The translations under genes and the position numbers were made by a program. Below, piece by piece: positions 22,571 to 62,401 of a DNA stretch of 64,000 bases (its first letter is position 1; each line of letters opens with the position of its first letter). The notes beneath the pieces were generated by a model. That model made no database searches and had not been told where the DNA came from. It was given only the letters and a program-made list of their open reading frames with translations. This stretch comes from Amphibalanus amphitrite (lineage: Eukaryota > Arthropoda > Thecostraca > Balanomorpha > Balanidae): positions 186,001-250,000 of the forward strand of contig NW_024881840.1 in assembly GCF_019059575.1 (NCBI RefSeq), read 5' to 3'.

Positions 22571-23515
22571 CCCTCGCCCATGTAGGGGGGGGGTTGGTGC
22601 AACCCCCCCCCCCCCTGAGGTTTTTCGGAAATAGTGCAAAAACGGCGGCGCGCAGCGCCGCCAAATTTTGGGTACCTTATGGGGCAAACCTTGCGCATCT
22701 TTTGATAAAAAAAATTTGACCGGGTCATGTCAGGTCACGGAGTTATGACGTCACAAAGGGAACAGCCTCCGGCCGGATTTTCACAAACTGAGTGCCAACG
22801 CCCGAGGTTTCCTGCCGATGGTACGGACATCGGTTGATGGATCGTGATGAAACTTCCCATGCATGTTGGGGCAAGTATTGGCTATCATATGGTATAAGAA
22901 ACTTGACCGGGTCAGGTCAGGTCACGGAGCTATGACGTCACAAGAGGAACAGCGTCCGGTACTATTTTTGAAAAGCGCCCGAACCACTATTTTGCTAATT
23001 CTTGTCACCTCAATGGGAATATGCAGCAATATTAGCTTCTATAGGGAGCAAATGGACCTCCCAAATCCAAAAATACAATCAGATTTCAAAAATTTAAATT
23101 TTGATTTTTCGAATTTCTGCCGCCGACTGTGACCTTGCCGACTTCCGGCGCTCCCAACGCGCCATTTTTAGAGCTAGGGAAACGAAATACATACCAAACG
23201 ATAGAGAATTGATCAAGGAACACGATAGTGAAGGTTTCAAGTCGATATCTCCCACCGTTTTGCCGCAATCGCCGCGGAAAGTTGAAAAAAGTCTATTTTT
23301 CCGAAAATTTGACCTTTGACCGGTCAAAAGTAGGTCAAATGTTGACCTAGGACCAAAAAATATACCACCAATCGCGAGATCTCGTTGAGAGCAATCCGTT
23401 GGTTTTTTCCGCTAAGCTCTACGACGCTCCGTTTTCAAACGCCAAGGGGGGGGGTCGCACCAACCCCCCCCCCCTGCATGGGCGAAGGTGGCAGATCGCC
23501 GTTTACGGGCGAGGG
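22571..23515 (-). mobile_element. TTAA-flanked piggyBac-like non-autonomous element, copy A
   Basis: A 945-bp unit flanked by perfect TTAA (22567-22570 and 23516-23519). The left end is CCCTCGCCCATGTAGGGGGG; the inverted right end starts CCCTCGCCCG and has a second TCGCCCATGCAGGGGG about 29 bp inward, so this copy is oriented on the - strand by the double-motif rule. Each end has a G-tract/C-tract hairpin with loop TTGGTGCAA or its near match. The interior has AGGTCA half-sites and TGACGTCA at about 22746 and 22933. No transposase is present. TTAA plus CCC termini suggest the piggyBac superfamily. Confidence 0.85.
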
Positions 23516-24093
23516 TTAAATATAATCTCAGTGTTGGCAAGGTCGAGACGCGGATTTCTGCCATCGGCAGCGCGGGCCGCGATGTGAGCCCCTCCCTCTG
23601 CCCTCGCCGACAGACCGCTGTCGGCAGCCTGTCGGGGCCTGCAGTGGCAGCTGGGCCGTCCTGCCGGCATTGTTCCGGCGTGCCGACCGTGGCAGCAGCG
23701 TTTCACAACTCCATAACCTTCAGCCGACCCCGCCCCAGCACCCCACCACCGGAGACCCTTACCAGTCCCAGCGGCTTCATTCTACAGTAGTATTAGAATT
23801 AAGAATAGTGCGAATGTGTCCATAACCCTCATTAGTTCACCTAGTTGTTCGTTGTGACTTGGTTCAGTTTCAGTTCTCAGCTAATTATATAGATTGGCAA
23901 AGGAATGGATCTGAAGAATGGTAAGCAATACTGCTGTCCACGTAGGCAGAAACTTGGTTTAAAATGAAGATTGTCTTAACCCGGAAGGGCGCATTTTATT
24001 ATACACCGACAAACCCCAGAACCCCAGAAGGTACATTTTACTATGCATCGCGACAAAAGACTGTGGTTTTTCATCTCGATTTTTTCATCGCTA

Positions 24094-25407
24094 ATGGGTG
24101 TTAACTAAAAATTGAGATAAAGTTTAGCAGGCTGTATCTTCGGTAAAAATGTACCGATTTAAACAAACGAGGCATTGTTGTAATGCATACTGCATCTGCT
24201 GCAAGCCCTAGAGCGTCAACAGATTTGCCTGATCCCCATAGGTCATTTTTGGACATTTCCTTGGAAGTGTTGTCACAAGCTCTGGCACCAGTGGACCGTG
24301 ATGTTGGCCAGTTGATGGTGGTAATGAGCAACCAGTTGATATTTTGTATGAAATCGAAAGACACAAACATACGTTATAACCTTAGGCAAATCACATTAGA
24401 TACTCATTTGTTAAATTTCAGGCGTGGAAAATGGGTTATCGGGTCTCGTTCCAATGGAAATTTTTACATCGGCCGGGGCCCTCAAGGCACCCCTTGGTTA
24501 GTGTGCTGGCGCGAGGTCGGACCAGAAAATCACCTTGTGGTTACATATGTTGTTCTGCATGAACCTCTAGTGCTTAATAATACACTTGGCTCAAAAAGTA
24601 TCATATTGTAAAGGACCAGTCTGGAAGAATAAAGCCGAACTGATGATATTCTCTGAAATAACACATACACCACGGCATCCAGCGTTAGCTTGCATGCTGA
24701 CACTTAAATGGACGTTAGCCCTTGTATCATCGATCACATCACAACAGAACACTCCATTGTCTAGTCAATTGTCGCCCTTTAACTAAAAACATGATTTTTC
24801 TACCTTAAATAGTTAAACTTTTTTCTGCATTTTTTGTCCCTTTTTTGACCATAGCATATTTACTTCTCTGACCTTATGTTGTTCCCAGTCGCTTCGAGAA
24901 ATCATTTGCGCCGGTTGTAACTCAGCCTAGTCTCAGGTGTGATATATCTTCTTCGCTTAGGCACAGTTAATGCCTTACTGATCAGCAGCATTGCGCCGTG
25001 AGGTGTCAAAAAGCCCCTCCACGTGCATTTTCGGGGCCCCGACCCTTCCTCAGGTCAATATCTTCACAATTACACCACTTCAGCTTTTTGGACTCCCACA
25101 CCCTCTAGAACTTTCGTCCCACTGTACGGTATGTAACTAAATTTGACATTTTAAGTTTTCATTTGGCATTTGTACGTGCCAAACTCTCCCATTGACGTGC
25201 TATTTTGGGTAAGCCTGCCAATGGGCTTTTGGTAGTCCTTGTTTAAAACGACCTCCAACGCCACTGTTTTCATTACATCCGTGAAATTTTATGCTCGGCA
25301 ATGATAAAAACGTCCCTTTTATCTCTATGCTAAGTTGCATCGTAATAGCTTGCTTCACTTTTGATATGCAGCCATTCAAAGTTTGTGTCAATTTTTAGTG
25401 AACACCC
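24094..25407. mobile_element. TA-flanked Tc1/mariner-type element, 1.3 kb
   Basis: The left end reads ATGGGTGTTAACTAAAAATT and the inverted right end ATAGGGTGTTCACTAAAAATT, both continuing GA, with TA flanks at 24092 and 25408. The 142-codon open frame at 24183-24611 is not recognisable as transposase, so this is a decayed or non-autonomous copy. Confidence 0.7.
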
Positions 25408-28972: not shown

Positions 28973-31900
28973 TATGCTGTGAATGTGGTGCACAGCGACT
29001 GCGAGTTGCGTAAAGAAATATGTTGAACTTGATCAATGATCACCACTGCCTTGTTCAATGCTTGAAGTGGTGCTCTGCTGCCTCGCCCCCCCCCCCCCTC
29101 ACCTTCCCGCACAGTATATGGAATACTGACTGGAAGTATAGCGCTCGTCCAACAGGTCGTCCTCTTCTCTGTCCCAATTTACGTTCGTTTCTTTCAATCG
29201 GTGCCAATATCATCGGCACGCGCTTCTCACATGGATGCGCTCAGCGCGCGCTGACCGCAAACGCGCGTGCAAAAATTCGCGCCAAATCCGGGGATGGGGC
29301 TAACCGGGTCAGCGGTGTGCGCGAGCGCGTCCTCCGTGACGCTCGCGCTGCCCACGTACTACCGCGGTACTATCGGCCCACCACTGCGCATCGCTCAGTC
29401 ACCGCGGCGCGGTGGGGAGAGCGCCCGTCGGCACGCTGGCTTCCGGTGCGCCACACCCCGGGCCGAGCCCCCCTCCCCTCTCTCCCCTGCGGGTGCCACC
29501 CCCCGGACTGTGGCGCGGGGCGCCGCCGGACGCCGGGCGGATACCGCCGGCCCTTTGAACCTACCACGTGCTGTGGGACCTCTCCCAACGCTCGGAAAGT
29601 GTATGGATGGTAGAACATTGCTGTCAGGATAACGCCCCCGCCGGTGACACCGCGGGAGGGGCTGGGCGGCCCCTGTCGATATGCAAAGCACTGATTCGGG
29701 TCTGAATGCCAGAATAGAGAGGGACTGGCACATCCCGGACGCTGCTGCTGTGTAGCACTGTTCGCCGTTTGACGCACTGTTGCGTCATGGTAATGCCAAA
29801 AGATTTTGTTTTGTGTGCCGTCATCCGTGATAACGTAATGGGGAATGATTTGTCGTTTAGTTCGTATCAACTATCGCAGTCAACATGAGGAAGAACACGC
29901 TTTAGACGGCAGGGTGTACTTTTTGTGCAGTTCCGCGGTCAGAATATTGCTGAGCAGAGCAAACATGTCGTGCAGATAATTGCGCGCTGTTCGGCAGCCC
30001 CCGGGCGAAGCGGTGCAGCGGTGGCGTGGTGACGCGATAATCAGAAAAGTTTGATATGGGATCGCTTTCGGCGTGCCGTCAGCTCTGTCAGGTCTAGTCC
30101 AATTAGTGACAGCACAGCATCAGTCATGTCTGAGGGCTGCCAACCTTATTCAAACATGACCGTCTGCATTTGTTATCATTACCGTGTATCCTGATTCCTG
30201 CATGACCGTTGTTGACTTTTCTAAATGCCTATTGGACTATGGATGTATGTATAGTGGCATGCCAACACCTTGGCTGATGAATAACCAGCGTGGCTGAGAG
30301 GCACATATTCTGCATAGTGCTTAGCTGACCTATCAGAATAACTAGTTGGTATGCGTTGTAAGTAAATAAATATGTCCAATATTAACCCGCGCGGGGCTGG
30401 GGTCTCCAGCCGAACGCGCGGGGCTGGGGGGGGGGGTAAATTTAACCCCCCCCCCCTGTTATCTCCCGAACTAATGGTCCGATCTGGAAAATTCAAACGC
30501 CAATCGAAAGATCTCATCACGAACAACTAAAAACATGTACTTAATTTTAAGTTTGAGGTCAAGGTCAAGGTCAGGTCAAGGGTACAAATTGCAAGTTCCT
30601 ACAGTATCGGCCTTGCACCGTAGTTGCCGAAGAATGGAGTCATGGACTGAGACTGATCGCCCAAAACGTGTTCTTAGGCTACCAAGACAATATTCGTTGC
30701 ATACAATATCATTCAGAGGTCAAGGTCAAGGTCAGGTCAGGTCAGGTCATGTCACCAAAAACAAAATATAGAAAAGGGCATGTGCGACACATGTTTTATG
30801 GGTCATTTTACTCATAGAATTCAATAGGCACACTCAATAAGTGATAACTGATATGGACCACCTCTGGATGAATTTCAGGTCGAGGTCAGGTCAAGGTCAG
30901 GTCAAGTGAGGTCAAATTTTGAAGTTGGTTATTAAGGCCTAAAAAGGTGTCTATCTGATGCAGTTTTTCACGGCGAATCGAATGGTGCTACTTTTGTTTC
31001 CGTACGAGGTCTAGAACTTCCAAAAAAGTCATTTTTCAATTTTTGTGTGTGTCGTGACGTCATACAATTTTGAATAACTCCCACATTTTTGAACCGATTC
31101 TTGTAAAACTTGGTATGTAGGTGCACATCAGTCCCACGCACAAGGGGGAAAAGCTAAAAAAATTGAGCGGGCCCCATTATGAAGGAATAGGCGAAACGAT
31201 GGTATTTTACAATGCCTTTAGCGTCACACTACAGCAAATATCGTATCCAAATAAGGTATCAATGGCAAGAGAGAGCAACAAGGTTTCTTCTCGAACACTC
31301 GCCGTGATAATTTATATCGGTGTTTTTGGAAAGAAAATGCCCTAAAGACGCTCAACTTTTTGAGCGCCACTTGTCGTTCGGGACCGCGATACTCAATAAA
31401 TTGAGCGCCACGACAGACGACAGTCAGCTGGCGCTCAAAAAATTGAGTGCCGGCCAGCATCTACACTCAATTTTTTGAGCGTTCTCCGTGACAGGTGAAG
31501 CCGGTACTGGCTGCCATTTTTGATGTTATGTTCGTTGAAATACGTTAAACTGAGTTGAAACAGAAATGCAGGAAGTTGAATGCTACGTGGTACCTAAACT
31601 TTTCACAAACCCATGGCATCATGTCACATTTTCCACTAGTAGTTTTATCGGTCTTTCGGATTCGGCACACCTCAAATAATTATACAAGGCTTGAATAATC
31701 CGTATGAATACTGTAATTGATATTCTCTGACTGTACTGGGAGAAGGGAATACGTGAATACAGAGATATCCACCCACCCTTGAATATTGGAGAATTATAGC
31801 AGGAAAAACTGTATTGCCACGGTTACAACTTACAAGGCCATCGGCCGCAAACAAACAAAAATATTATACAATGTGGGTTAGATACACAAACATCATCACG

Positions 31901-32224
31901 TGTGGAACACAGAGACGAGCAAAACAACATCACATTATCGCATGCCAGCCCGACCACATTGGAACCGGGTCCGGGTGACCTGCGACCGGAACCTGCGTCT
32001 TGCCAGCATACATCACAAAAGCAGGAGGCAGTGTCGTACTGCTTTGATCCAAAATATGCCATATATCAAATGATATAAACGACCTAAGCTCGGACTAAGC
32101 TTATCATTATCAAATCCTTAACATGTAAAAGACGAATGGAAACATCGAGTCTCAGACCAGCAGTAGCAACGATCACAGTAGCAACATCACAAAGAACACG
32201 CGGCATTATCAGACAGCCGTTTTG

Positions 32225-32830
32225 TTATCGGGCTACAGGCGGCGACGGCGTGGTTGCAGACCAGCTGCGAGGTAGCGGCGTGCGGGCAAAAGGCGCGGGC
32301 ACACCTCCATGTGGCCGTGCGGGCAGTGCGCGGTCGGCGTCGCATAGTGGGCGGCATCGGGCTGTCCCGGGCCGTCGAAGCCGCACAGGTTGTCGGCGCA
32401 TGTGGGCGCGCGCGGTCACCACGGCCAGCTGCTCACCGCCAGCACAGACTGCGCAGCGTCGCCGCTCCGCCGGCCAGAACACGCAGACAACCCTTCTTGC
32501 AGTCGCACAACACGTCGCCAAACTCATTCACCTGCTCCACCATGTTGTTGATGTCACCGAGTCGTTCGAGTTGTGGCTCGTGCCGTCGAGCATGACCTGC
32601 CCGATCGGACACGGGTCAGCGGCTTCTGCTCCAGCGAAGTCTTCATCTTAGTGACGTCTTGCTGATCTCCACAAAGGCTGAGCAGATGACCTTACCCACA
32701 GAGACGGCCGACGTCCTCGCCAGCGACCGCTCGGTTGTGCAGACCTGCCAGAAAAAGAAAAGCTGTTTGGTGATCTCAAACGATTTTTTTCTTTATGCAG
32801 TGGAACAAAACGGAAAATATGTCATACAAC
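32225..32830 (-). pseudogene. Degenerate Cys-rich coding remnant of unknown origin
   Basis: On the - strand, clearly protein-like but broken pieces occur: LGDINNMVEQVNEFGDVLCD with CKKG, then ADNLCGFDGPGQPDAAHYAT with PTAHCPHGHMEVCP, and in another frame a second Cys/His stretch. GC-ending codons and paired cysteines suggest former coding sequence, but the frame shifts several times. I do not recognise the family. It lies within the 31130-34043 element, so it may be element cargo or a captured host fragment. Confidence 0.35.
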
Positions 32831-33067
32831 AGGAACTAAAAAAAGATGCAGCCTAGGTCGTCTAAGAAATGGGTGCAACATTGATAAAATTCTTCATTGA
32901 ATGAATTCTGCAAATGCTTTTGATAAAATGTGTGGTGATTATAAGGAGACCACTTTACTATAAAATTGCTCAGGATTCCCTATCTGGACCTGTCAAAAAA
33001 TCCTGACTGCACACCAACAATGAGCATTAAATCCAAAACCTCTACCAGGTACCTAGGGATAATTTAA

Positions 33068-33770
33068 AGGGACCCTCCCACCCTCAAAAAAGTTTATGAA
33101 TTGGCATGAAAGTGATGTCGCTCGGTTCAGAAAGAGCGAAAACGAATATCTATCAAATTTCACCGAAAAATATTCACTGGTTTTCAAGATATTAGACTTT
33201 TACTTTTGTTTACTTATTTGGGATCTCCGCTGTTTCTAGCGACTTTATTTTATAAGTGCGGCGTTTGCGGCAGATGTTGCGCGCAAATAGCATATACCAC
33301 CGCGTGCTACAAAACGTTTTAGTCAAACATTTAAAAATCGTTAGATATTTGCGCTGACGTCACACATTCAGAGGGGTATTCCTAAGCATTAGCCCCTCTG
33401 AATCAAAATGCAAATCGAGGAAAACGTGAATTGATTGACGTTTACGTGTTTCCAAATTTAAAATCACAGCATATTCAAACTTTTCAGTGTACCTTTTAAC
33501 ATCTAAGTACAACTAAAACGATAAAAACTTACCCTCAACACAAGGACGACAACAACCACGCGACCGGAGACGTCGCGACGAAATAAACAAACGGCGCCGC
33601 CAAATCAAAATATTCTCCGATAAGGGTAATGTGAAATTGAATCGCAATCATTTCGGGTAGTATGAAAAATGCTCTTTCCAACAGAACCCTAGTAAAAAAC
33701 GTGAATGGACAAAAAATAACTTTTATTTCGACATAAATATTGACCTGTTTTTAAGTCATCCTGGTATGCC
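33068..33770 (+). mobile_element. Partial copy of a TTAA-flanked MITE (AGGGACCCTCCCACC ends)
   Basis: After TTAA (33064-33067) the sequence AGGGACCCTCCCACCCTCAA and about 370 bp following closely match the complete copy at 54273-54760, including GCTGACGTCACACATTCAGA. The match then stops and no right terminal repeat is found. The right boundary given is approximate. Confidence 0.7.
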
Positions 33771-36420
33771 GTAAGATTTCGACCTATAAATTGGTGTTCC
33801 CCCAATCATTGAAGCTTGAGCAGTGAAAAATATGAAAGCCTAATCTGTTTTGCATCATTAGTGATTCTCCTAGGGTGTTGCCATTTCTCCCTAGGTGTTG
33901 CGAGTTGCTTTTGCAAAACGTGTTCCTGAAACGGCTCAATTTTTTGAGCCCTCAGCATTACGCCTATGGGAGCCTCTGACGTCACACGCTCAATATTTTG
34001 AGCGCTCAATAATTTGAGCTTTTCCCCCTTGTGCGTGGGACTGACATAGACCACTTCTCTGACATATATTCCGGTTTTTTCGATACACTCAAAATTTTGG
34101 ATTTTATAGCTATTTTCAAAAAAAAAATCAGTTTTTTGAAAAATTTGGGCCAAAATCCAAAATTTTCAAAAAACCGAGATAGCCATTTGATAGACAAAGT
34201 AAAATTACGTGTATCCTTTTTGATACGTCTTGATTCCTTTAAAAATGAAGATGTTAGCGGCGTTTGAACTTTTGCCGTTTTTGAGGCGAAAATGGCGAAC
34301 ATGACGTCACTAAAACGTCAATTTCTCAAAAATTTTCCGACGGATTTCGCTCAAATTTTCAGGGAACGTGTCAAATTGATGTAAGAAAAGGTACTGAAAG
34401 TTTGGCGGCGCTGCGCGCCGCCGTTTTTGAGATATTGCAAAAATTCGCGAGGGGGGTAAAATTTACCCCCCCAGCCCCGCGCGGGTTCATGTGCACGCAT
34501 GAGGAGAAGGTAGTAGACAATCATGCAGGGACGCTTTGACCTTCGCCCTTGCGATATACGGGTTGTGAGGCAAAGATAAAACTTCTAGGAGAGTGAAGTC
34601 TAGGTGCATTGCACATGAATCAGTGCATCATTGCAGAGAACGAGTGCGTCTTCGTCGATGTATTCGGCCATTCTGTGTGCTCAGTAGTTGGGCCACTGGC
34701 ATTCAGAAGCGTAACAGCAGAACTAGGCTATGAGGTAGGGTTAATGCCTTATGATCCAGCTCATGAGATTATCCTATACTCCTGGTGTTACATGCTCCCA
34801 TATAATGGGATACAAATGACGCGACAAAGTACCAGCCAGACTCAAAGCCGAAAGGTGAAATGCCAAGTGAAAATGCCATTTTGATTGGCTTTGTCATTTT
34901 CACTTTGAAACCACGGTAATGCAATCATCTTAAGCTGCACAGATAATCCAGAAAGCAGGCTACCTCACGGTTCTACGCAGCCCGTGACGCTCGGCAGCGT
35001 TACGCTGGGCGCGTGACCACTGACCTGGCCGTGACTCGGCAGGACAGAGCTGTTTCGGTGCCTGTCGCCACCCCTTCCGGCGGTGGGCCGCGCCGCTGTG
35101 ACCTTGGTGCTGCCTGAGAGCTCCGGAGGAAGTCGGGGCGCCCCGCCCATCCCCTCGGTGACCATCCTCCGGCACGGCCGCCGCTGGATCCTCCGGAAAC
35201 ACCTGCTGCCGCGGAAACGGCAGCCCGCCGGCCACACTTCGGATATCGCCTGCGGCTGGACCGTAGCAGATTTTGAAAGATCCTATAATGGTGATTGAGC
35301 ACTGGATGCATGTTATTATCCAATACATTAATTTATTATTTAGGTATTGTATAAAATGATAAATGGAAATATTGTGGCAATCAGAGATGAAGTCGAATGT
35401 CCAAATCGTAAGCCTTCGATGCCGGATATGGAGTCCTCCTCGGATCTGCCCGGTTTCAATTGGGTCCTGCTGAGTCCTGCCTGTGACGCTCGGCTCTGTG
35501 AGATCATCTTCGGCCCTGTTTACTCGCACAGTCCCGTCTTTCCTCACTCGCTCCTGTTCGACCTTCTTTAGCTCCAGCCTGCTCAGTTCGACCCTCCTCA
35601 GTATCGGTCCGTCCCGTTGGGTCGTGCCGGGTCCACCGGAGGCCACCGGCCGCCGACAGGTGTGGTGTGGCCTACCGCTCCGTGGAGCGTTTCGGACCGG
35701 CGGCGGCGCGCGACCACTTGGCCCGCGCCGGCCGGCTGAGCACGTGCTGGGCACGAGCCGCCCGTGACGGCCGCCCCCGCCCCCGCCCCCGCCCGCGCCG
35801 CCGCCACCGCAGTAATCACTCCACAGCCACGGCAAATTATCATACCGCAGGCCCGTCACCCTCGAGCGGCTGCGCCTTCAAATAAAAACTGGAGTGTGGC
35901 CGTCGCGCGCATTGGCTGCACAAATCGGCTCAAAGTGAGGCAGGGACTGGAACCGCCGGTAATGATTTGTGATTTCATAATGGAATTGGAAATTATACCA
36001 ATAATACATTTGTGCTACTGGAGGGAATCATTAGCGGCTGACTTGGAGTTAATACAAGTGTTTAAATAACTTTTTCATTCAAGCCTTGCGTGCCGAATTT
36101 GAGATAGGTTTGTGATTGCATGCACAGTTTGTTCAGACGAATCGTAGCGGAAAAAAGTAGACAATCGCTAACTCAGCCCTTGCCGTCGGGTGTCAGTAAA
36201 GGATGTTCTGTCCGTCAGCCTTAGCACAGACATTGTAAAATTGACTTTTGGAAGCAATGTGGTGATGTTACTTCTCACTCCAGTTGAAACGAGTTCAATA
36301 ATTTCCGCAAATGTCCTGTAATCAACAACACGAAAGACACCTGCTTTTTGTTCTTTGATAATCGCATAAAATTCATAACGGAGCCAAGTTCAGGGATGTT
36401 GTTGATGGGTCTTCAGATCA

Positions 36421-37123: not shown

Positions 37124-38022
37124 CCCTCGCCCGCACATGCCATTTTCCCATCCTAGAACGCACATGGGGGGGTGGTTGCCACCCCCCCGCGCCATTTCGT
37201 TCCTGTTGGAGATAGAGCTTAGCGGTAAAGACCAAAAATATTCTTTGGGAAGAGACCAATCTAATGATACCCAGTTTTACCTTCTCAGGTCAGTCATTGA
37301 CCTTCCAGGTCAGGTCAAACTAAAAAATGTTGCTGTTTTGGGTCACCGTTGGATATCAAGTGCGCTGCTTATCAAATACCGATGACGATGCTGTTTTCTG
37401 GTGCCAAGCCAGCTAGAACCTCTTGATCACACTACCCGACCAGAATTTTGCTGCTGAGGTCATTTCAGGTCAAGTTAGGTCAAGGTCAATTATATGTGTT
37501 TGTATGTCTGTGTGTGTCTGTGTGTATACTGATGTGTGCACCGATTGTTTTTGGGTCCATATTACATGAAATCATGATCTGAGAAGCTTTTACCAAAAAT
37601 GCAGTCAAAAAACTTCACAAAAAGTAAATTCGGCTTGCCTAAAACGCAATTATCTTAGATGACCTAGGTTGACCTTGACCCTGACCTTGACCCCTGTACA
37701 TCGTCGAACAACATGTTCCATGATAGGTGGGAGGTAAGACTGGCAAAAAAGGCCGAAATCAGGGTGTCAAAAGCTCACAAGGCCCATGGCAAACGCAAGT
37801 TGTTGAGAATTGGCCATTTGGGTCATGACATGACCTGAAAAACAAGGTCATATCTCCGAAACCAAAAATCACAGAAACTTGAAATTTTCAGTGGACATCA
37901 AGAAAGGATAGAGGAGCAGCTATACGAAAAATCAGCCTTCTAGCTTCAAAAATGTTGAGTGCAGAGCAGAAAGTCTACCTGGGGGGGGTGGCAACCACCC
38001 CCCCCCCATGTGCGGGCGAGGG
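37124..38022 (+). mobile_element. TTAA-flanked piggyBac-like element, copy C
   Basis: Right flank TTAA (38023-38026); left flank decayed to CCAA (37120-37123). The left end has the doubled motif (CCCTCGCCCGCACATG, then CGCACATGGGGGGG 27 bp later); the right end is single. The hairpin loop is TGGTTGCCA at both ends. It carries GGTCAGGTCA-type half-site runs (37290-37320, 37460-37490, 37660-37690). Size is 899 bp with no ORF of note. It lies 15 bp from copy D. Confidence 0.85.
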
Positions 38023-38041: not shown

Positions 38042-39225
38042 CCCGCGCCCCACTGGGGTCTGCGTATAACGCGCCCTACTGGGGGGGGGCTCTCCATAGC
38101 CCCCCTCTTAACTCTGAAACTACTGGGCCGATCGTCAAAACTCAAACGGCGTCTGATAGCCCAAGAAAAACTGTCGTACGAAACCTAATTTCATTGACCT
38201 CGAGGTCATCGACGGCGTCACAGGTCAGGTCAAAGTAAAATGTATTAGCATTTTGGCTTGTTCACATTTTGGGCTCTGGCCGCCGTCTTACAAGTCAGAT
38301 CAGGCCCATTTTTTGTTACACACTTGTGAACAGATGCTTTAGATACCCTGAGGGTAGCAAACTTGTACTTTGATTTTCAGGTCAGGGTCAGGTCATCACA
38401 GGTCACGGAAATATTATATCATACGTCGGCCACGTGACAGATGTTTTATGGTCCATTTAGGCCGTAGATTTCGAATTTGATGTCGTTTGTGTCATTCGAG
38501 GTCATTTTGAGTTGAATTTAGCTTAGGTCAGGTCACTTTCAGGTCAAAAAGGTCAAATTTTGAAACTAAAATTTTTCAATAAAAAATGTGTGTATTGGAT
38601 GCAGTTTGAGCTCAGGAACACGATAGTGCTATTTGTATTGGTGTACGATGTCAAATACGTACTGAAAATTGATTTGAAAAAATTATAATTGTGAATTTTA
38701 GGCAATAATTCGTATAACTTGGCCATTTTTGAAGATACCTATTTAGCTAAAAACTTGCTACAGTAAGTCATAAGCATGTGTTCTATCACATATATTTCGT
38801 TTTTTCGAAAAGTCGAAAAGTGTTTGAAAAAATATGAAAAAATAAATTTTGAATTTTATTATATATAATTTTCTAAATTTGCAAAAGTTTTGAAAATCCG
38901 AGATAGCAGTTTGATAGCACAGTCTATTCTGAGTCCTCGCATGCAAAGAAATTGGATCTAGCTTAAAAACTGAGCTCTTGGGAGTTGGGAGCGATTGCCG
39001 TGGTTCAATGTTTTGCGTCGAAATCGGCCGAACATGACGTCACTCTGACGTCATTCCCGACCGACCTATGGCAGCTACGAAGTTCATATTTTGACACCAG
39101 GTGTCAAATTAATGCAGCCGAAGGTACTGAAAGTTTGGTGTCAATACGTCAAGCAGTTTGGAAGTTATTGCAGAAAAACGGGAGGGGGCTATGAATAGCC
39201 CCCCCCCCCCGCAGTGGGGCGCAGG
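38042..39225 (+). mobile_element. TTAA-flanked piggyBac-like element, copy D
   Basis: Flanked by TTAA at 38038-38041 and 39226-39229. The left end is doubled (CGCGCCCCACTGGGG, then CGCGCCCTACTGGGG about 26 bp on); the right end is single (CAGTGGGGCGCAGG). Hairpin loops are CTCTCCATAG on the left and CTATGAATAG on the right. It has runs of AGGTCA and paired TGACGTCA at 39026-39050. Its sequence is very close to the copy at 59058-60147 and homologous, inverted, to copy E. Size is 1184 bp. Confidence 0.88.
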
Positions 39226-39664: not shown

Positions 39665-40852
39665 CCCGCGCCCTGGTGGGGGGGGCTATTTTTTGCCCCC
39701 CCTCCAGACTTTTCGTCATATCTCCAGAACCGCTGCGCCGATCGTCACCAAACTTTCAGTACCCTCCCGGACATCAATTTTACACATTGTGACCAAAAAT
39801 TTTTCCAAAGGCTATGATAGGTTGGCCGGAAATGACGTCAGAGTGACGTCATGTTCTGCCGTTTTCGACCTAAAAAAGGGTTTCGCGGGAAGAGCTGTCA
39901 GGCCTATAGCTTTGCAAATACAGAAAAATGATAAAGACATAAAAGCTGTAGAATTGACAGGGCTACAAAACTGCTGTCTCGGATTTTTGAAATTTTTGGA
40001 TTTTGACCCTAAAAAAATCAAAAAATAGATTTTTTGAATATAATAGCCGAAAAATCCAAAAAGTTTTTAGAATTTCGCAAAAACCGGAATATATGTGATA
40101 GTTCTTACCACCTTCTATCCACATACCAAATTTCAGATTGATACCTCTTTTTTTGGCGAAGTTTTAGCGGAAAAACTGTTCAAAATTGATGACGTCAAAT
40201 TTTCAAACTCAATTTTTAGCAATTCTAGACCCCGTAGCGCAAAACAAAGACCACCATTAGACTCCCCGTGACGAGCTGCATCGAATCAATACCCATTTTA
40301 TGCAAAACTATCAACTTTAAAATTTGACCTTTTTTGACCTGACCTTGACCTGACCTTCACCAGAAAGTGACCTAAGCCGTACCTGATAGTCTTATAACCA
40401 ACACCATTGAATTGGAAATGAAAAATTAGCCATAAAACATGCATCGCACAACCTTAGTACCTAAAGTTAGGTTCATGTGACCTGACCTGTGACCCTTGGT
40501 GACCTGACCTGTGACCTGACCTTGTATAGTGAGCTCTTATAGCAACATATGTACTAGGCAACTGACGCCCTATCGCTGATTCTCGACAAAATGCGTTTTC
40601 TTCGGTGTTATAGCGCATTCCCTAGATGACCCGTGAACGGTGAAACATTGCACCTTTGACCTGACCTGTGACGTCATCGGTGACCCCGAGGTCAATGAAA
40701 TTTGGTTTCCCCCGACAAATTTGACAGGGCTATCGAACGCCGTTTGAATTTTGCGGATCCGTCCAGTAGTTTCGGAGATACGAGGGGGGGCAAAAAATAG
40801 CCCCCCCCCCCCCACCAGGTCGCGTTATAAACAGACCCCACCAGGGCGCGGG
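39665..40852 (-). mobile_element. TTAA-flanked piggyBac-like element, copy E
   Basis: Flanked by TTAA at 39661-39664 and 40853-40856. The doubled end is on the right (CCACCAGGTCGCG, then CCACCAGGGCGCGGG), so it is inverted relative to copy D. Hairpin loops are CTATTTTTTG and CAAAAAATAG. Its interior matches D in reverse (for example the ATTTCATTGACCTCG and ATGACGTCACAGGTCAGG blocks). Size is 1188 bp. Confidence 0.87.
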
Positions 40853-41314: not shown

Positions 41315-42335
41315 CACGCGCACTGCAGCGGGTCTGAGCCGAACACGAACTGCAGGGGGGGGGGGTTGAAACCCCCCCCCCTGAGATCTCGAAAACGGCG
41401 CAACGTATAGCGACAAACGGTAAACGGCGTTAGATAGGTGGAGATGTTACTTAGAGGAAATACTAAGTCATTTTGTCTCAGGTCAAAAACGAGGTCACCA
41501 GAGGTCACCGAAGACAAAATGTTACGATTTTCACAACAGGAATTTCGCGGTAGTTTTTCTTGAATAACTTGTCTTGCACACAAGACAGAGGATCGATTCG
41601 AACGCCATCGTTCTTAGCTCGTCAAGGCGCATCGAATGATATATAATATGACCTCGAAAGGTCAAGTTGAAAATTTGACCTCAGGTCAAGGTCATGACCT
41701 GACCGAAATAGGTCATGTTGCATATCATTCGATCCGCATTGACGAGAAAAACACGATAAACGTCGAACGGAGTCTCTATCTCTATTCAATCTCAGTTATT
41801 GAAGAAAAACCGCTGGTGACCTCAAGTGACCTAAGATGACCTGGAGATCACCTTCCAAAGGTCATAAGTGATATGTTTCGGTGAAATCACCATCAGGGAC
41901 CTGTAATACTATGATCCTGAGCGTATTGAAGTCATAGGATGGCATTCAGAGTAAGTTAAAATTTCTCCCATTGACTTATAATGGGCCGGTCGCAAAAATG
42001 ACCTGACCTTAGGTCATCGATATAAAAATTCCGAGATATACAAAATGTAGCTCGTGATGACTTTACTATTTCCTGTGGGTTTCAAGATCATATCTCAACA
42101 ACTGTGGGCTTGGTGGGATTGCAAACTTCGAAATTTACGTTTCGAGGTAGGGTCACTTGACCTGACCTGGTGACCTGACCATAAGTCACCTGGGGTCAAA
42201 ATTTTTACTCAAGTTGTGCAAAAGTTGGGAGAACAGGTATGCGAAATTTGGCGGCGCTACGCGCCGCCGTTTTCTCGCGATTTGCGAAAAACCACAGGGG
42301 GGGGGGTTGAAAACAACCCCCCTGCAGTGCGCGTG
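41315..42335 (+). mobile_element. TTAT-flanked piggyBac-like element, copy F
   Basis: Flanked by TTAT on both sides (41311-41314 and 42336-42339), a variant target. The left end is doubled (CACGCGCACTGCAG, then ACACGAACTGCAGGGGG); the right end is single (CTGCAGTGCGCGTG). Hairpin loops are TTGAAA on the left and TTGAAAACAA on the right. Its interior has many AGGTCA/TGACCT half-sites (41480-41720, 41815-41860, 42150-42200). Confidence 0.83.
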
Positions 42336-43742: not shown

Positions 43743-46440
43743 CCCTCGCCGGCCGAGGGGGGGGGCGGCGGCGGCGAGGGGCGGCACCCGCCGGCAGCCG
43801 GGTGCCGCCCCCCATAGGGTTTTTTTTCGCGATAGCTCCGAAGACGCTGGCGATAGAGAGCTGGAACTTGGCACACCTGACCTTTGATTCAGGCCGGATC
43901 TTTTGACACCAACCGCATTTTTTGGGTCAGGTCAGGTCACTGGCCTATGACGTCATAAGTGAACCTCTGCACGGTCTTCAGATGTCACAACTTCGCAACG
44001 CCCTCACTGCCAGAGGAGATGTCACAGGGAAATGAATCTTGCAGGATCTAGTATCCATTATGAGTCTCACAACTTGCACATCTCGGATTTTTCCTAAAGG
44101 TCATATGAGGTCAGGTCATTTTCGTGACCTCACCATTTTAAGTCAATGGGAAAAATGAAAAGTGCTATTCTGGCGCCGGGAACGATCTCCAACCATCTCA
44201 AGCACCCAGAATCGTGATTTGATGCAAGGTAAGATGCGTCACTTTTGCAATGTTGACCTTGCGTGACGTCATTTAAGACGTCATCAGGGTCATATTCGTT
44301 TTTCGTCAATAACTCTTGATCAAATTGAGCTAGCGAGTCGGGAAGGCCACCAATGGACTCAGGAAGACCTGCCAAATCGAATGATATGCGACATGACCTC
44401 TTTCGACCAACTTCGTGACCTGGGGGTGCTGACCTGACCTTGACCTGAGGTCAACACCCTAAGTTGACCTGACCCGAACAAAAAGTATATCATTCGACGC
44501 GCCTGAGCGAGGCGAACACGATGCTGCCAAAATCGCGGCTCTGGCGAATAGTTGCGATAGCTCTCGAACGCTTAGGGATAGGAAAGCGAAACTTTCAGCA
44601 CCTTTTCTCCCATCAATTTCACATCTTCTGAAGTAAAAACTTTGGACCTAGCTTCCTTGATGACGTCACAAGGTCCATTTTTCTAGACCCCTGCACGGCA
44701 AACTTTGGCGTCACAGACTCAAACTTCAAATAGCTGCTAAGAATAGAGTTTTAGAGATAAAGACAAATTACGAGCACGGTTGTGTAGCGTTTGACCTAGA
44801 GGAAAATAGAAAAATAGTTTTGGTGACCTGAGGTCAGAGGTCAGGTCAACGACCCCGAAATGTGGTTTTAGTTTTCGCAAATATGAAATAACTTCGACAA
44901 AAAATGGCCCTAAAGCTACGGCAGTGGTACCATCGCATTCGCCTTGTCAAGCCGCGTCGAATGATATATATTTTGTCCGGAAAAGGTCAAATTTTATGTT
45001 GACCTCATGTGACCTCGAATGACCTCTGGTTGACCTTGACACATGAAAGGTCGTTTAAGATGGATTTGTACCCGCTGATCACGAATCTGGCATTTATTTT
45101 CCTCTAAGCCTTGATTTAGAGCTTCCGGATGGCAAAGTTGTCTTATTTATTATTACTAACTTGAATCAGTGACATAGCCTCTAGCAGGGATACTCTTCTG
45201 TGACCTTGACCTTTGAGCAGCCTTGTATCGTAAGATGAACCACAAATAGGGAACTGATAAGCCTCAAAACGTTTCAAAACATCTTGGAAGTTAGCACGCA
45301 AGATGTGCGAAAAAGTGCCAAGTTTGAGGTCAATTTTGAGCATGACCTTGACCTTGATCTTTAATTTTGAGCACGTTTTCGGAATCCTCAGATTCTCTTC
45401 TTTCGTTTGACACCCAATTTTGCCGGTTTGATGCAGCCTGCCGTCCTCTAGAAGGCTTACTTTGAGATCACTACACATGTGCCGGTTTTTGCCTTTGACC
45501 TGGACCTCTGACCTTGGAAATTGACCTGAGGTCAAAAATTTTAGGTGCTTTAGAATCGTCTCGTAAGGACCTTTCGTTTGGTATCGCTTTTGTTTCCGTA
45601 GCTCCCTTATTTACGAAGTTAGACAGGGGGGGGGGGGGGCGAAAAACGCCCCCGGGCTGCATGTGGTTGGGACTACCCCCGGGCCCGGCCGGGCTACCTA
45701 AGGTGTATAATTGACAGGGCTACACAACTGCAATCTCGAATTTTGAAATTTTTGAAGTTTGACCCCCAAAAATAAAAAACTATTTTTTATATATAAGCCG
45801 AAAAATCCAAAAAGTTTTTCGAGTTTCGAAAAAAACGGAATCTATATGATAGTATCTATAGCGTCTTCTATCTACATAGTTTCAAGTTGACCTTTCAAGG
45901 TCAAATTATAGTTCATTCGACGCGTCTCGACGAGAGGAACACGATGCTGGCAAAAGTAATGTCATGGCTTTTTTTAGTCAAAAGTTATTAGTTATTACCG
46001 AAAAAAACGCTTTTCGTAAAAACGGCTATTTTGGAGTTTTTGCCCTCTGAAGGCTAAACCGTTGACTGAGGTCAAATCTGAGAACATTATTCACTTCAGA
46101 AAGGTCTGTAAAAGGGCTATCGAATGCGCTTTTCCGCGGCGCTGTAGCTCTATCGGTTCCCGAGATAGCCGTCGGCAGTTTCCAAAATGTTGAAATAGTC
46201 AACATTTTACCTTTGGTGACCTCTGGTGACCTGACCTTTAACCTGACCCAAAAAATGACCGAAGTGTTTTCGTCCTTATTTTGGAGTCTTGGACGTTCTT
46301 TCGATTTCCGCCTAGGAGTCGCTACGTGGCCCAGGAGCCGAGGGAGGTGTTCAGACACCCCCCCCCCCCGGCCCGGCGCGGAATCTCAGACTGCAGGGGC
46401 GCGGGAACTACTTTCCGACTGGGGGGGGGGGGCACACCAT
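43743..46440. mobile_element. Cluster of degraded TTAA-type elements (copy G and fragments)
   Basis: A left end of the TTAA family, CCCTCGCCGGCCGAGGGGGG after TTAA (43739-43742), is followed by 2.7 kb full of GACCTGACC half-sites and TGACGTCA sites (43948, 44262-44280, 44660). Internal hairpins (G-run-GCGAAAAACGC-C-run near 45627; C-run/G-run pairs near 46362 and 46425) mark ends of at least two further copies. No matched right end for the first copy was found, so the boundaries of single units are unresolved. Confidence 0.55.
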
Positions 46441-54938: not shown

Positions 54939-54983
54939 TTAGGGGCGAAAAACGCCCCCCCCCGGGCCAGCGAGGGCTAGCAT
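54939..54983. mobile_element. Orphan right end of a TTAA-type element
   Basis: GGGGCGAAAAACGCCCCCCC followed by CCGGGCCAGCGAGGGCTAG has the subterminal hairpin and GCGAGGG terminus of the TTAA family, with the target decayed to CTAG. No left end was found. The same loop (GCGAAAAACGC) is seen near 45640. Confidence 0.5.
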
Positions 54984-55690
54984 TCCGGGGAGAGGTGGCA
55001 GAGCGCCTGACGAGAGCAGCACAGACGTCGATGGAGCGTTATAGGGAGGGGCGAATCATTAAACCTTTTGACGCATTTTGGGAAGGGGAGGCGCGTAAGG
55101 GCAGAAAGGCGTCTGGGGAGGGGCGGCACGTAGCGGCGGCAAGGTGCCTTGGGACTTTGGGAGGGTGGCGCCGACTGCGATAGAGCATTGTGGGGAGTGG
55201 CGGCTTGTTGAGGGCGGTGGGGTGTTGTGGCGAGGGGCGGCACATAGTGGGCGCCAAGATACTCTGGGGAGGGCGGCAAGGCGTTTATGGAGGGCGGCAC
55301 AGACGGTGGTAAAGCGTTGTGGGGAGGGGCGGCACATTGGGGGCGGCGGGGTTTGTGGTGAGGGGCGCCACATAGAGGGCGCCAAGGCACTTCGGGGGGT
55401 GGGCGCACATATGGCGATAGAGCATAGGGCGGCTTATTGAGGGCGGCGGGAAGTTGTGGCGAGGGCAGCACATAGAGAGCGCCGAGGTACTCTGGGGAGG
55501 GCGGCACAGACGGCGATAGAGCTATATGCGGAGGGGCGGCACATTGAGTGCGGCGGGGCTCTGTGAGGGGCGGCACATGAGAGCTCCGAGGAACTTGAGG
55601 GGAAGTCGGTGCGGAGGGGCGGAAGGACATCTGGGAGGGGCGGCATGTAGAGGGCACCTAGTTATTTTAGTGAGGAGCGGCACGTTGAGG
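54975..55690. repeat. Minisatellite, ~20-bp unit (GAGGGGCGGCACATAG type)
   Basis: Units such as GAGGGGCGGCACATAGTGGG, GCGCCAAG and GAGGGCGGCACAGACGG repeat every 19-21 bp. It is the reverse-strand equivalent of the array at 57725-59057 (GCCGCCCCTC). Overlapping open frames (for example 54977-55657 on the - strand, encoding Pro/Ser-rich repeats) are products of the array. Confidence 0.85.
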
Positions 55691-56227: not shown

Positions 56228-57079
56228 CACGCGCAGTGGAAGGGTTGCGAGTACTACGCCCAGTGGAAGGGGGGGCGGATGTCGCCCCCCCCTAAGATCT
56301 CAGCTCCCACTGGAGCTAGAAAGACGAAATTTGGAGGGTAGGTGGGGGCCATGGGGAACTCTGTTGTGTGTGAATTTCATGACCCTAGGTCAATATCTTC
56401 AAGGTCAAATGAGGTCAAATGTGGTCAAATCTGCCATATTAGCGACTTTTTTGCGTTTACACGCCGATAACTCAAAAAGTTACCGGCCGATTTTCTTTTT
56501 TCTTTCACTATACGAAAGAACAAACATTTGGGAGTATGTATGGTGAATTTCTAGATAATCCAACAATAAATATGGCAGTTAGAAGCCTGCTAAGGATAAG
56601 ATGTTGCCGGCTGAAGCGGGATCGGCGGACGCGGGAAACGCGGCAATCACAATTTTGTGTTTACACACTCATAACTCAAATTGTTTCCGGCCGATTTTCA
56701 AAATTCTTTGACCATATGATTGCCTGTACATTTCTCAGTCTTCTCACCGAATTTGACGCGAATCTAATATAATCAGCGGTAAGGAGCGCGATGTAAAGAC
56801 GGAACCGTCCCGCCCCGGCACAGTCTACAATTCAGGCGGCGCGTAACGGCTAGCGCCGGCCGCCGCGCCGCCGCGCCGCCGCCGCGGCAGGATGTTTGAC
56901 TTTACACCGCTATTACTAGAAAAGTTGTGAACCGATTTTCTTATTTCTTGCACGAGAAGATCTGCAATTCAATTTTGGACAGGTAGCCAAAATTTCACAT
57001 TGATATTATGTTCGCGGCGCGAGTTATTGGCGAAAAACAGGAGGGGTGGGCGAAATCCGCCCCCCTTCCACTGCGCGTG
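56228..57079 (+). mobile_element. TTAA-flanked piggyBac-like element, copy H
   Basis: 852 bp between TTAA at 56224-56227 and 57080-57083. The left end is doubled (CACGCGCAGTGGAAGGG, then TACGCCCAGTGGAAGGGGG); the right end is single (CCTTCCACTGCGCGTG). Hairpin loops are CGGATGTCG and CGAAATCCG. Only a few half-sites (56400-56430) are present, fewer than in copies B-F. A CpG-rich block, GCCGCCGCGCCGCCGCCG, lies at 56858-56886. Confidence 0.86.
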
Positions 57080-59057: not shown

Positions 59058-60147
59058 AACTACTGGGCCGATCGTCAAAATTCAAACGGCGTCTGATAGC
59101 CCCGGAAAAACTGTCGAGCAAAACCTAATTTCATTGACCTCGAGGTCACCGATGACGTCACAGGTCAGGTCAAAGTAAAAATTATTAGCACTTTGGCTTG
59201 TTCACATTTTGGGCTCTGGCCGCCGTCTAACAAGTCAGATCAGGCTCATTTTTGGTTTCCACACTCGTGAACAGATGCTCTAGATACCTTGAGGGTACCA
59301 AACTTGTCCTTTGATTTTCAGGTCAGGGTCAGGTCATCACAGGTCACGAAAATATTATATCATGCATCGGTCTCGTGACACATGTTTTATGGTCCATTTA
59401 GGCCATAGATTTCGAATTTGATGTCGTCTGTGTCATTTGAGGTCATTTTGAGTCGAATTTAGGTCAGGTCATTTTCAGGTCAAAAAAGGTCAAATTTTGA
59501 AGTTGAAATTTTTCAACAAAATAGGTGTCTATTGGATGCAGTTTGAGCTCAGGAACACGATGGTGCCATTTACATTGGTGTACGATGCCAAATACGTACT
59601 GAAAAATTGATTTAAAAAATTAATAATTGTGAATTTTTTGCAATAATGCGTATAACTTGGCCATTTTTGAAGATATTTTGCTAAAACTTGCTAGAGTTAG
59701 TCATAATCATGCGTTCTGTCGCATATATTCCATTTTTTTTCGAAAAGTCAAAAACGTTTTGAAAAATATAAAAATATAAATTTTGAATATTATTATAAAA
59801 AAAATTTTTCGAAATTTTCAAAATTTTGAAAACTCGAGATAGCAGTTTGATAGCGCGGTCAATCCTGAGTCCTTTCATGCAAAGAAATTGGATCTAGCTT
59901 AAAACTGAGCTCTTGGGAGCGATTGCCGTGGTTCAATGTTTTGGGTCGAAATCGGACGAACATGACGTCACTTTGACGTCATTTCCGGCCGACCTATGGT
60001 AGCTACGAAGTTCAAATTTTGACACAAGGTGTCAAATTGATGCAGCCGAAGGTACTGAAAGTTTGGCGTCGATCTGTCAAGCGGTTTGGAAGTTATTGCA
60101 GAAAAACGGGAGGGGGGCTATAAATAGCCCCCCCAGTGGGGCGCGGG
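59058..60147 (+). mobile_element. TTAA-type element, copy I, left end missing
   Basis: The right end is intact (CAGTGGGGCGCGGG before TTAA at 60148-60151). The left terminal hairpin is absent and the sequence joins the minisatellite directly at CTACTGGGCCGATCG. The remaining 1.09 kb matches copy D (38117-39225) almost base for base, including the paired TGACGTCA motifs (59965 region). Confidence 0.85.
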
Positions 60148-60159: not shown

Positions 60160-60525
60160 AGCACCCCTCCATATGATGGAGCCGCCCCTTAAAGTATCCT
60201 TGGCGGTCCTTAAAGTTACAGTGCCGCCCCTTACAATGTGGGTGGCGTCCTCAAAATAAAAGTGATGTTGCCCCCCCCCCGAGTAATGTTGGCGTCTCTT
60301 TCTTCTTTAAGTATCTGAGGCGCTCCTCATTGTCATTTTGCCCCACATCACTGCTCACATGGCGCCCTTCAATGTAATGGTGCCACCCCGCAACGCTCAA
60401 AGACATAATTGCGCTCCTCACAGTGTCGGTGGCCCTAAAAAATATTGGTGGCGCGCCGCAAAAATCAAAATGATGCTGTCGTCCCTTAGCATATCTGCAG
60501 CGCCCCCAAAATGATAGTGCCTTCC
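60160..60525. repeat. Continuation of the 21-bp minisatellite
   Basis: GCCGCCCCTTAAAGT-type units resume directly after copy I, more degenerate. They show that copy I inserted in, or recombined with, the array. Confidence 0.75.
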
Positions 60526-60530
60526 CTTAA

Positions 60531-61491
60531 CCGGCGCCGGGCTGAGTTTGTTTAAACCCCCCTCCCGACCCCTATAACTTGGCTACTTAGGCCACGTAGC
60601 GACACGCGGTAAGCGGTATTCGAAAGAGTGTCAAAAACTGCTTGGGTTAGTTGGTTAACCGTGCTTTTGTTAGGTCAAGTCAAATGTCAAATATCAGGTG
60701 ACCAGAGGTCATCAAAGGTGAAATGTGGGTGAAATGTTGTCTGTTTCAACATTTATTGACAAACTGGCGCATAACTCGGGGAAGAATAGAACTACAGCAC
60801 CGCGAAAAAGCGCATTCGATAGCTCTTCAACGTTCCTATGAAGTCCTCAGACTTGACCTAACATCAACGGCTTAACCTACAGAGCACAACTTGTTTAACC
60901 CGTGCCGGGCCGGGGAGGGTTGGAGGGGACAGTGGACCCTCTGCGCCCCTCTACTGAGCTGTTTTAATGAAGAACCTTTTTACTGTAATAATTATTGACT
61001 CACGAAAGTTATGACATTGTTTTTTCAGTACTGTGCTCCTCTCGTCGAGATGCGTCGAATGAACTATAATTTGACATTCAAACGTCATTTGGGAAATTTG
61101 AGCTCAGGTCCAGGTCATGACCTGGCTGGTAAATGTCATGTTGCATATCAGTCGATTTGTATCGTCAAACTGAAATCATCATATGTAAGGTGTTTTCATC
61201 GCTCAGGCATGTCGCATGTCTCTATCAGAAGTTATTGGAAAAAACTGCTGGAGGCCTACCATGACCTGACATGACCTCAAGGACATAACAAGGGGTCGTG
61301 GGTGTCAATTTTCCGATTAAGTGTGTCATTTTTGATTGTTTTCTGATGTTTAAATTCGTTAACTTTGACATTTGTCTACCTATAAAAAGAGGCACATGCC
61401 CTGATTTTCTCCCATTTCCTTTTACCTAATGGAAGGGTCGCAAAATTGTCCTTACATTTGGTCAGAGACATCGCAATTTCGAGACTTACAT
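60531..61491 (+). mobile_element. Two truncated left ends of TTAA-type elements (copies J and K)
   Basis: TTAA at 60527-60530 precedes CCGGCGCCGGGCTGAG with a short GTTTGTTTAAAC-like hairpin before a C-run. A second TTAA at 60895-60898 precedes CCCGTGCCGGGCCGGGGAGG. No matching right ends are seen. Interiors show GGTCA half-sites (60680-60720, 61100-61140). Both look like broken copies in tandem. Confidence 0.55.
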
Positions 61492-61495
61492 TTAA

Positions 61496-62401
61496 CCCTC
61501 GCCGGTTGATGCAACCCCCCTAAGGTTTATCGCGAATAACTCGCGTAAAAAGCGGCTGATCGCAACGAAACTTTCAGTACCCTCGAATTGATCAATTTTA
61601 CACCTACCCTGCAAATTTTATGACCCTGACTCCAATGACCTTTCACCTGTGACCTCTTTTCCGTGACCATGTTTGGCCGAAATCAAGATTCGGCGTATGT
61701 CGGCTCGCATTAACCGCGCGTTTGCAAGCTTTTCGTGGTTTCAAACGTTCAAACATGTGATTTGATGTTGCTCCCATGCATTAGGGTGGGTGTCAAGGTC
61801 ACCTGAAGGTCAGGTCAGGTCATTGACCTTTGGTGACCTCGGTTCACTTTTTCGAGTTTTACATGTTTCTAGGCTAGTTTTTGGAGCTGAATTCGAATTT
61901 AGCAACCATTTAAATATTTACGAAGTAGTTTTGGTGCCTTCGTAACATGTTACGAAGCTGTCAGAGGCGGATGACAGGTACTACGAATACCCGGTACGAC
62001 CCCTACCGGTTGACCTGACCTGACCTGACCTGACCTGACCCGACCTGGTCTAAACGCTTAACGACATCATCTGTGATCAAAACTAACACGATATTTGTGA
62101 TCAGCACCCCGGAAAACCCCTTAGCAGCCACAATTTACGACTTTCAAACAGGTCCCGATATTCCCGATTTTTGGGTCATTGACCTGACCTGGAAGGTCAA
62201 CCGATGACCTAGGACCTTGAAATTGGGTATCATTGGCTTCCTCTCGTGACGGGCAACACGCTCGTTTTTTTTCTGCGAAGCTCTAGCTCCATCAGGGGCC
62301 AAACGCGAGGGGGGGGGGCCAAATGTACGACCCCCCCCGGGGGGTCGTACCAACCAACCTTGTGCCGTCGAAGGACTCAAAATGGCCTGTGCCGGCGAGG
62401 G
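61496..62401 (-). mobile_element. TTAA-type piggyBac-like element, copy L
   Basis: Left flank TTAA (61492-61495), right flank TTAT (62402-62405). The left end is CCCTCGCCGGTTGATGC. The inverted right end starts CCCTCGCCGGCACAGG and has a second CGGCACAAGG about 29 bp inward, so it is oriented on the - strand. It contains GACCTGACC repeated six times at 62008-62045 and further half-sites at 61795-61840. Size is 906 bp. Confidence 0.82.

Follow-up and report, generated by a model that had tools for sequence, protein, structure and literature searches.

A stretch of 64,000 nucleotides of the Amphibalanus amphitrite genome (NCBI RefSeq assembly GCF_019059575.1, contig NW_024881840.1, positions 186,001 to 250,000 of the forward strand; hereafter the window, in which positions are counted from the first letter) holds a family of DNA elements that are flanked by TTAA or TTAT, begin with CCC or CAC, and carry inside their ends a hairpin made of a G-run, a short loop and a C-run. 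Eight loci possess both ends (A, B, C, D, E, F, K and I), and several single ends are present besides (Table 1). In this study, we have examined the ends, the flanks and the interiors of these elements, most subfamilies of which occur as single copies in the one window sampled, and have compared them with known transposons.

The elements, their hairpins and their tips

The scan of the window for at least five G, 3-14 nt and at least five C returned 19 hairpins, against a mean of 0.53 and a maximum of 2 in 100 dinucleotide shuffles, and the opposite order (C..G) was matched only once. By their coordinates, 16 of the 19 fall at element ends and three (9809, 46577 and 46608) fall elsewhere. Together with the eight two-ended loci, these counts bear out the original prediction, which had described a family with TTAA or TTAT flanks, CCC or CAC tips and terminal hairpins; the asymmetry of the ends, the AGGTCA arrays and the insertion nested in B, all described below, go beyond it.

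TTAA stands on both sides of A, D, E and K (4 of 8) and TTAT on both sides of F, and the flanks are unequal in the remaining three (B, C and I), each with one TTAA and an altered partner, so that 14 of the 16 flanks read TTAA (11) or TTAT (3). All tips but one (15 of 16) begin with CCC or CAC, the exception being the right tip of D (CCT), and they form three classes: CCCTCGCC.. in A, C and I; CCCGCGC.. in B, D and E (CCTGCGC at the right of D); and CACGCGC.. in F and K. In a survey of piggyBac transposons (PMC10813416), the tip motifs reported are CACTA, CCCTC, CCCTT and CCCAT, the usual first three letters are CCC, and targets other than TTAA are occasionally duplicated. A five-letter match with these motifs is found for the CCCTC of A, C and I only.

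The length of B (4.1 kb) is due to an element of about 2.9 kb nested inside it (31128-34044), which is bounded by 42-bp inverted repeats (31128-31169 and 34003-34044, 93% complementary). Without this insertion B measures 1183 bp, near D (1184) and E (1188), and the sequences on both sides of it align, loosely at the junction, with uninterrupted sequence of E. With B counted in this way the elements measure 852-1188 bp, as compared to the less than 500 bp usual for miniature inverted-repeat transposable elements (MITEs; PMC2872659); their tips match and they have no Pfam domains. D2, a second copy of D, is 90% identical to it over 1082 columns, and G, M, N, J/H and OP are single ends or decayed fragments; no matching right end was recognised for G. 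A CGTTTTTCG loop is common to the ends N and M.

Table 1. Positions of the elements, of their fragments and of two chained AGGTCA examples in the window
Feature	Position	Strand	Length (bp)	Flanks (left/right)	Description
Element A	22571..23515	-	945	TTAA/TTAA	Short end left, long end right; hairpins 22585-22615 and 23446-23474
Element B	30386..34485	+	4100	TTAA/TTCA	Long end left, short end right; hairpins 30426-30456 and 34451-34472
Element C	37124..38022	+	899	CCAA/TTAA	Long end left, short end right; hairpins 37166-37188 and 37981-38007
AGGTCA in C	37457..37482	+			Chained DR4 (direct repeat with a 4-bp gap) example, interior of C
Element D	38042..39225	+	1184	TTAA/TTAA	Long end left, short end right; hairpins 38081-38105 and 39184-39210
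Element E	39665..40852	-	1188	TTAA/TTAA	Short end left, long end right; hairpins 39678-39702 and 40784-40813
Element F	41315..42335	+	1021	TTAT/TTAT	Long end left, short end right; hairpins 41355-41381 and 42297-42322
Element G	43743..45620			TTAA (left)	Left end with extended GC hairpin (by eye); 34 interior AGGTCA
AGGTCA in G	45000..45025	-			Chained DR4 example, interior of G
End M	45626..45693	-		Non-TTAA	Long-type end with 27-bp repeat, tip placed by eye; hairpin 45626-45653
Fragment H with end J	45697..46405				Interior akin to E, OP and F; best end-repeat offset 23, not above shuffles
End N	54944..54987	-			Solo end
Element K	56228..57079	+	852	TTAA/TTAA	CAC tips; long end left, short end right; left hairpin 56269-56292
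D2	59058..60147	+		TTAA (right)	Second copy of D in a 21-bp minisatellite; left end missing, right TTAA and hairpin 60112-60134 intact
Fragment OP	60531..61480				Two TTAACC-type tips; AGGTCA-bearing interior akin to F and H
Element I	61496..62401	-	906	TTAA/TTAT	Short end left, without G-tract; long end right, hairpin 62309-62338

Short and long ends, and the comparison with piggyBac

The original prediction had placed a hairpin with runs of 6-12 G and 6-12 C some 20-50 bp inside both ends. Hairpins are indeed present at both ends, but the two ends are unlike and the runs range more widely, from about 4 to 14. In eight short ends the hairpin comes immediately after the tip block, its G-run starting 14-16 bp inside, and in eight long ends it starts at bp 40-43, with the tip block repeated in the sequence ahead of it (element I departs from this layout, as described below). 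The centres of the palindromes lie about 25-32 bp in at short ends and about 50-57 bp in at long ends.

The best internal self-match lies at 26 or 27 bp in 9 of the 10 long ends (A, B, C, D, E, F, K, M and I). When compared with 2000 letter shuffles matched at any offset, it was equalled by none for B, D, E and K, by 4 for I, by 7 for F and by 17 for C; for M and A, each taken singly, the support is weak (120 and 220 shuffles), and these numbers become 2 and 9 when offsets 26 and 27 only are considered. Since the long ends had been picked out by eye beforehand, and hand-set tips were used for M and J and hand-set test lengths for M, I and J, the test demonstrates a common spacing and not the existence of the repeat. 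The short-end block (bp 4 to the hairpin) was also compared, within each element, with the inner copy at the long end, taking the best of offsets 25-28, and the match amounts to 81-100% of 14-16 bp in seven elements (A 14/15, B 14/14, C 13/16, D 14/16, E 13/14, F 12/14 and K 14/15), with only 7/11 in element I.

Interior similarity between the elements also gives an orientation, and the polarity from long to short end agrees with it in 45 of the 52 blastn matches that have E up to 1e-3, in 29 of the 30 below 1e-5 and in all 19 matches of at least 60 bp, the D/D2 pair, the B1/B2 pair and fragments without polarity having been excluded beforehand. Leaving D2 out altogether gives 32 of 38, and 13 of 13 for matches of at least 60 bp. 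Because the polarity is consistent with interior similarity in this way, the asymmetry of the ends looks ancestral and retained.

Within the hairpins, it is the loops that pair. In ten hand-picked loops, one per family, 28 of 30 stem positions pair, compared with 18.8 when the 3' halves are re-dealt (P 2e-5), and 26 of 27 pair without E, which is related to D (P 4e-5). These loops were chosen once the data were known, with preference given to the better-pairing end in B, D and F; with the worse-pairing end of each family the result is 25 of 30 against 17.9 (P 8e-4), 23 of 27 without E (P 2e-4), and 17 of 21 without E, I and J (P 0.004). Loops parsed automatically, among which M and J were misparsed, gave 18 of 26 (P 0.015). 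Among the loop cores are TTG..CAA (A and F), TAA..TTA, TGG..CCA, CTAT..ATAG, CGG..TCG and TGT..ACA, and in the 14 hairpins of A-F and K the lengths of the G- and C-runs show no correlation (Spearman 0.16, P 0.58). Since the loop stems covary between subfamilies, it is the palindrome, rather than the length of the tracts, that looks conserved, and what is under constraint seems to be a palindromic site instead of an exact stem.

Two other explanations of the hairpins have to be weighed against these data. One is that they are recognised by their shape, as an extruded cruciform, a quadruplex or a hairpin in a transcript, by the transposase or by host machinery. Single-strand folding does produce a hairpin in 7 of 7 ends (DNA energies from -10.6 to -34.1 kcal/mol, z from -1.4 to -6.1), and the covariation of the loop stems would be equally compatible with a palindromic binding site and with a folded stem. 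However, the run lengths do not covary, the length of the stem varies widely, and the hairpins lie as far inside the ends as does the palindrome of piggyBac, a site bound in the form of duplex DNA, and we therefore regard recognition by shape as unlikely. The other explanation is that the tracts are the functionless product of replication slippage on GC-rich tips. Although tract lengths vary freely and differ between arms, slippage alone leaves unexplained the order of G before C, the self-complementary and subfamily-specific loops and the fixed positions in 16 ends, which makes it very improbable.

A close known system is the piggyBac of Trichoplusia ni, whose minimal left and right ends (LE35 and RE63) each contain a 19-bp palindromic internal repeat bound by a dimer of the cysteine-rich domain, the one in the left end being located at bp 17-33 (PMC7351741). 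In the right end there is a 17-bp insertion and a duplication, such that its bp 34-63 are nearly identical to bp 7-35 of the left end. Pairs of two left ends are inactive in cells with the wild-type transposase, and an extra site increases activity about 2-fold (PMC7351741). Our elements share with this transposon the TTAA flanks, the CCC tip, the palindrome just inside it and the pairing of a short with a long end, an asymmetric layout that is not claimed for every piggyBac; the shift of the internal repeat, 26-27 bp in the family, compares with 63-35 = 28 bp in T. ni piggyBac. The original prediction had regarded the hairpins as foreign to known piggyBac termini, and this is not supported, as they sit where T. 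ni piggyBac has its palindromic repeat and at a nearly equal shift; given that the loop stems covary, the data are accounted for by an ordinary palindrome. In these ends we thus see a known design in variant form, displayed by several subfamilies at once.

Based on these results, we consider it probable that the family consists of non-autonomous DNA transposons of the piggyBac type, whose transposase is encoded elsewhere and in which the G/C palindrome replaces the internal repeat. The likeliest mechanism would be that the transposase cuts and joins at TTAA through the tip block, the flanks being putative target duplications, and that the G-run/loop/C-run palindrome stands in for the piggyBac internal repeat and is bound by a dimer of the C-terminal zinc domain of the transposase. 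At the short end, the palindrome directly after the tip block would provide a single dimer site; at the long end, with the block repeated 26-27 bp inward and the palindrome after the inner copy, there would be two, which would give a one-site/two-site pair of ends such as has been proposed for the synapse of the left and right ends of piggyBac. As the loop stem differs by subfamily, the palindrome may also set which transposase can use a given end. The authors of the piggyBac structure call the asymmetry of its ends enigmatic (PMC7351741). Subfamilies of differing sequence that share one short/long layout and a covarying palindrome would be natural replicates of this design, and the rule that they suggest (block, 26-27 bp shift, palindrome) becomes testable.

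Several observations weigh against placing the family with piggyBac. The piggyBac palindrome (TGCGT..ACGCA) has no sequence likeness to the G/C runs of the family, the repeated part begins closer to the tip than it does in piggyBac (about bp 4 against about bp 7), and the 17-bp insertion belongs to the piggyBac long end. Among the tips, CCCGC (B, D and E) and CACGC (F and K) lie outside the four motifs reported in the survey and correspond in their first three letters only, and TTAT is not among the variant duplications named there (PMC10813416). The best repeat of end J is at 23 bp and is unsupported (571 of 2000 shuffles as high), the tips of M and J were located visually, and in element I the right hairpin is at bp 64, not at about 42, and the left G-run is lost. 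The number of independent subfamilies is uncertain, because several of them share interior sequence. Six-frame Pfam scans of the elements found neither a transposase nor a fragment of one, which agrees with the original prediction that the copies encode none and fits a piggyBac-like family of the TTAA type, but it also means that the link with piggyBac rests on ends and flanks. Finally, no empty site was seen within the window. The right flank of D2 aligns with units of the surrounding minisatellite at 30-33 of 43 positions, on one side only, and its TTAA sits where the six best-matching units read CAAA, TTCA, CTAA or CAAC.

TTAA is also duplicated by Sola3 and by Kolobok, and the elements could belong to one of these superfamilies and have C-rich tips by chance. 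Kolobok termini are of the form 5'-RR..YY-3' (PMC9587614), a rule that the tips of the family (CCC or CAC in 15 of 16, CCT in one) do not follow. A separate TTAA-flanked element in the window (54269-54764) has AGGGACCCTCCCAC inverted tips (AGGGAC) that fit termini of the Kolobok type, contains no AGGTCA and gave no hairpin in the scan; a related copy of it starts at 33064, inside the element nested in B. The elements hold no transposase that would decide the matter, but the 26-27 bp asymmetry of their ends fits piggyBac and argues against Kolobok and Sola3, and a placement in another superfamily is in our opinion quite improbable.

Other TTAA elements resemble the family in part. The piggyBat of Myotis lucifugus (PMC11707139) also has TTAA, an imperfect palindrome inside the tip that is bound by the C-terminal domains, and repeated subterminal motifs; unlike the family, it has three motif-palindrome repeats 44 bp apart on the left and a right end without palindromes, and its sequence is unrelated. 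The CMITEs of corals (PMC2872659) are TTAA-flanked, non-coding and tipped with CCC, and like the elements described here they form subfamilies with differing terminal inverted repeats and a shared, conserved interior. They are about 100 bp long with a single 75-bp conserved core, whereas the family measures about 0.85-1.19 kb and has scattered AGGTCA arrays and G/C hairpins. CMITEs are the nearest precedent found for TTAA elements with an interior more conserved than the tips. Our search of the literature, made by titles and the first lines of abstracts among the best-ranked papers and outside subscription papers and Repbase, found no account of this family, of G/C-tract palindromes or of AGGTCA arrays.

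The interior AGGTCA arrays

Of all hexamers found 20 times or more inside the elements, AGGTCA shows the strongest enrichment, with 165 copies in 15,880 bp against 32 in the 48,120 bp outside; without the nested insertion there are 161 in 12,805 bp, about 18 times the density of the surroundings. It is present in every element and interior fragment, at densities from 3.5/kb in K to about 20/kb in F and in the left part of B, and the right part of B has none. AGGTCA is the half-site of nuclear receptors, and DR4 is a textbook receptor arrangement. We counted 16 DR4 pairs, with D2 and chains of period 5 omitted, against 1.5 in simulations that keep the number of sites per element, in which the maximum was 7 and none of 5000 runs reached 16. 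Fifteen different spacers occur in these 16 pairs, A having none of them, and the identical spacers in F and H may be one inherited site. The other gaps are DR0 (11), DR5 (8), DR6 (6), DR1 (2), DR2 (1) and DR3 (1). Twelve control hexamers gave at most 3 pairs at gap 4, a weak control as all are rarer than AGGTCA and some overlap it. This excess of DR4 is a spacing of the receptor type, and the arrays are predicted receptor sites in that respect. Adjacent copies overlap with period 5 in 32 cases (30 without D2) and 11 pairs abut; such overlaps are common and suggest that a part of the AGGTCA pattern is simple repetition. To our knowledge, the overlap of period 5 is not a standard receptor arrangement.

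The two copies of D differ at 0 of 70 bases within AGGTCA sites and at 104 of 1012 other bases (79 of 899 outside CpG), a conservation equalled by 1 of 622 circular shifts; AGGTCA is intact in 12 of 12 cases, as compared to 41 of 57 for hexamers of the same letters. This measure of conservation relies on D and D2, a single pair of copies. An alignment-based comparison between elements (243 of 297 against 270 of 635) and the conservation among D, E and B are biased, because the alignments anchor on the shared motifs.

A possible, though doubtful, explanation is that the DR4 arrays have been selected: a nuclear-receptor heterodimer of the host would bind them and open the element in cells where the transposase is active, copies of the element would scatter hormone-responsive enhancers, and the palindromes at the ends would serve as a transposase address private to each subfamily. 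If this were so, a DNA transposon would be borrowing hormone signalling and would supply the host with ready regulatory DNA. Quite possibly, if still short of probable, the arrays are instead additional binding sites for the transposase or leftovers of an ancestral satellite. The 32 overlapping and 11 abutting pairs fit such an origin, and coral TTAA MITEs too have a conserved interior of unknown role (PMC2872659). Fifteen different spacers in 16 DR4 pairs are unlike a decayed satellite, and the conservation between D and D2 by itself separates neither idea from the other. Alu elements with DR2 retinoic acid response elements (PMC1785376) are likewise a repeat family that spreads pairs of receptor half-sites; Alu, however, is a primate retroelement with DR2, and the family described here consists of presumed DNA transposons in which DR4 and DR0 are the commonest non-overlapping spacings.

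Two further motifs were seen in the interiors. The TGACGTCA palindrome, which we take to be the cyclic AMP response element, occurs 16 times in the elements and is not family-wide, as it is missing from C, F, H, K, OP and I. A conserved CATGACGTCACT block is present in D, D2 and E.

Rejected candidates and other repeats in the window

A match to the transposase model DDE_Tnp_1_4 at about 42658-42891, between F and G, was far below the cut-off (E 0.2) and is likely due to chance, and the weak Pfam matches of frames at 37-46 kb (ORC4_C, E 0.14; TNFR_nem, E 0.19) were also far below their cut-offs and were dismissed. Pfam searches of 10 of the 163 open frames of at least 90 aa found reverse transcriptases only (n = 2), and the window yielded no Rfam match at the gathering score and no tRNA with ARAGORN. 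In viral contigs, the tip patterns gave 0 and 5 matches, the latter in surroundings without a hairpin and treated as chance, and the hairpin pattern gave one, in a contig of 69% GC with no such tip in the 300 bases around it. The interior motif of D and E had seven matches in prokaryote genomes, all in actinobacteria, which we also took as chance.

The minisatellite into which D2 is inserted is made of 21-bp CTCAAAGTGATGGTGCCGCCC-like units (57740-59050 and 60150-60530), and similar units are found near 63234. The stretch 51650-53900 is occupied by degenerate repeats around CTGAGGGCCCCACACCGG, whose units in places measure about 22-23 bp, and GGGCGGCACA-type repeats of irregular length lie at 55011-55690, beside the solo end N. 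Further elements, with inverted tips recognised by eye, are located at approximately 27632-28976 (GTGGGGTAATTTGAACAT) and 50450-51482 (GGGGAGAGCGGGGCCAGTTGAA). Two long open frames with reverse transcriptase domains, at 6024-7388 on the reverse strand and at 48135-49412 on the forward strand, are probably of the LINE (long interspersed nuclear element) type.

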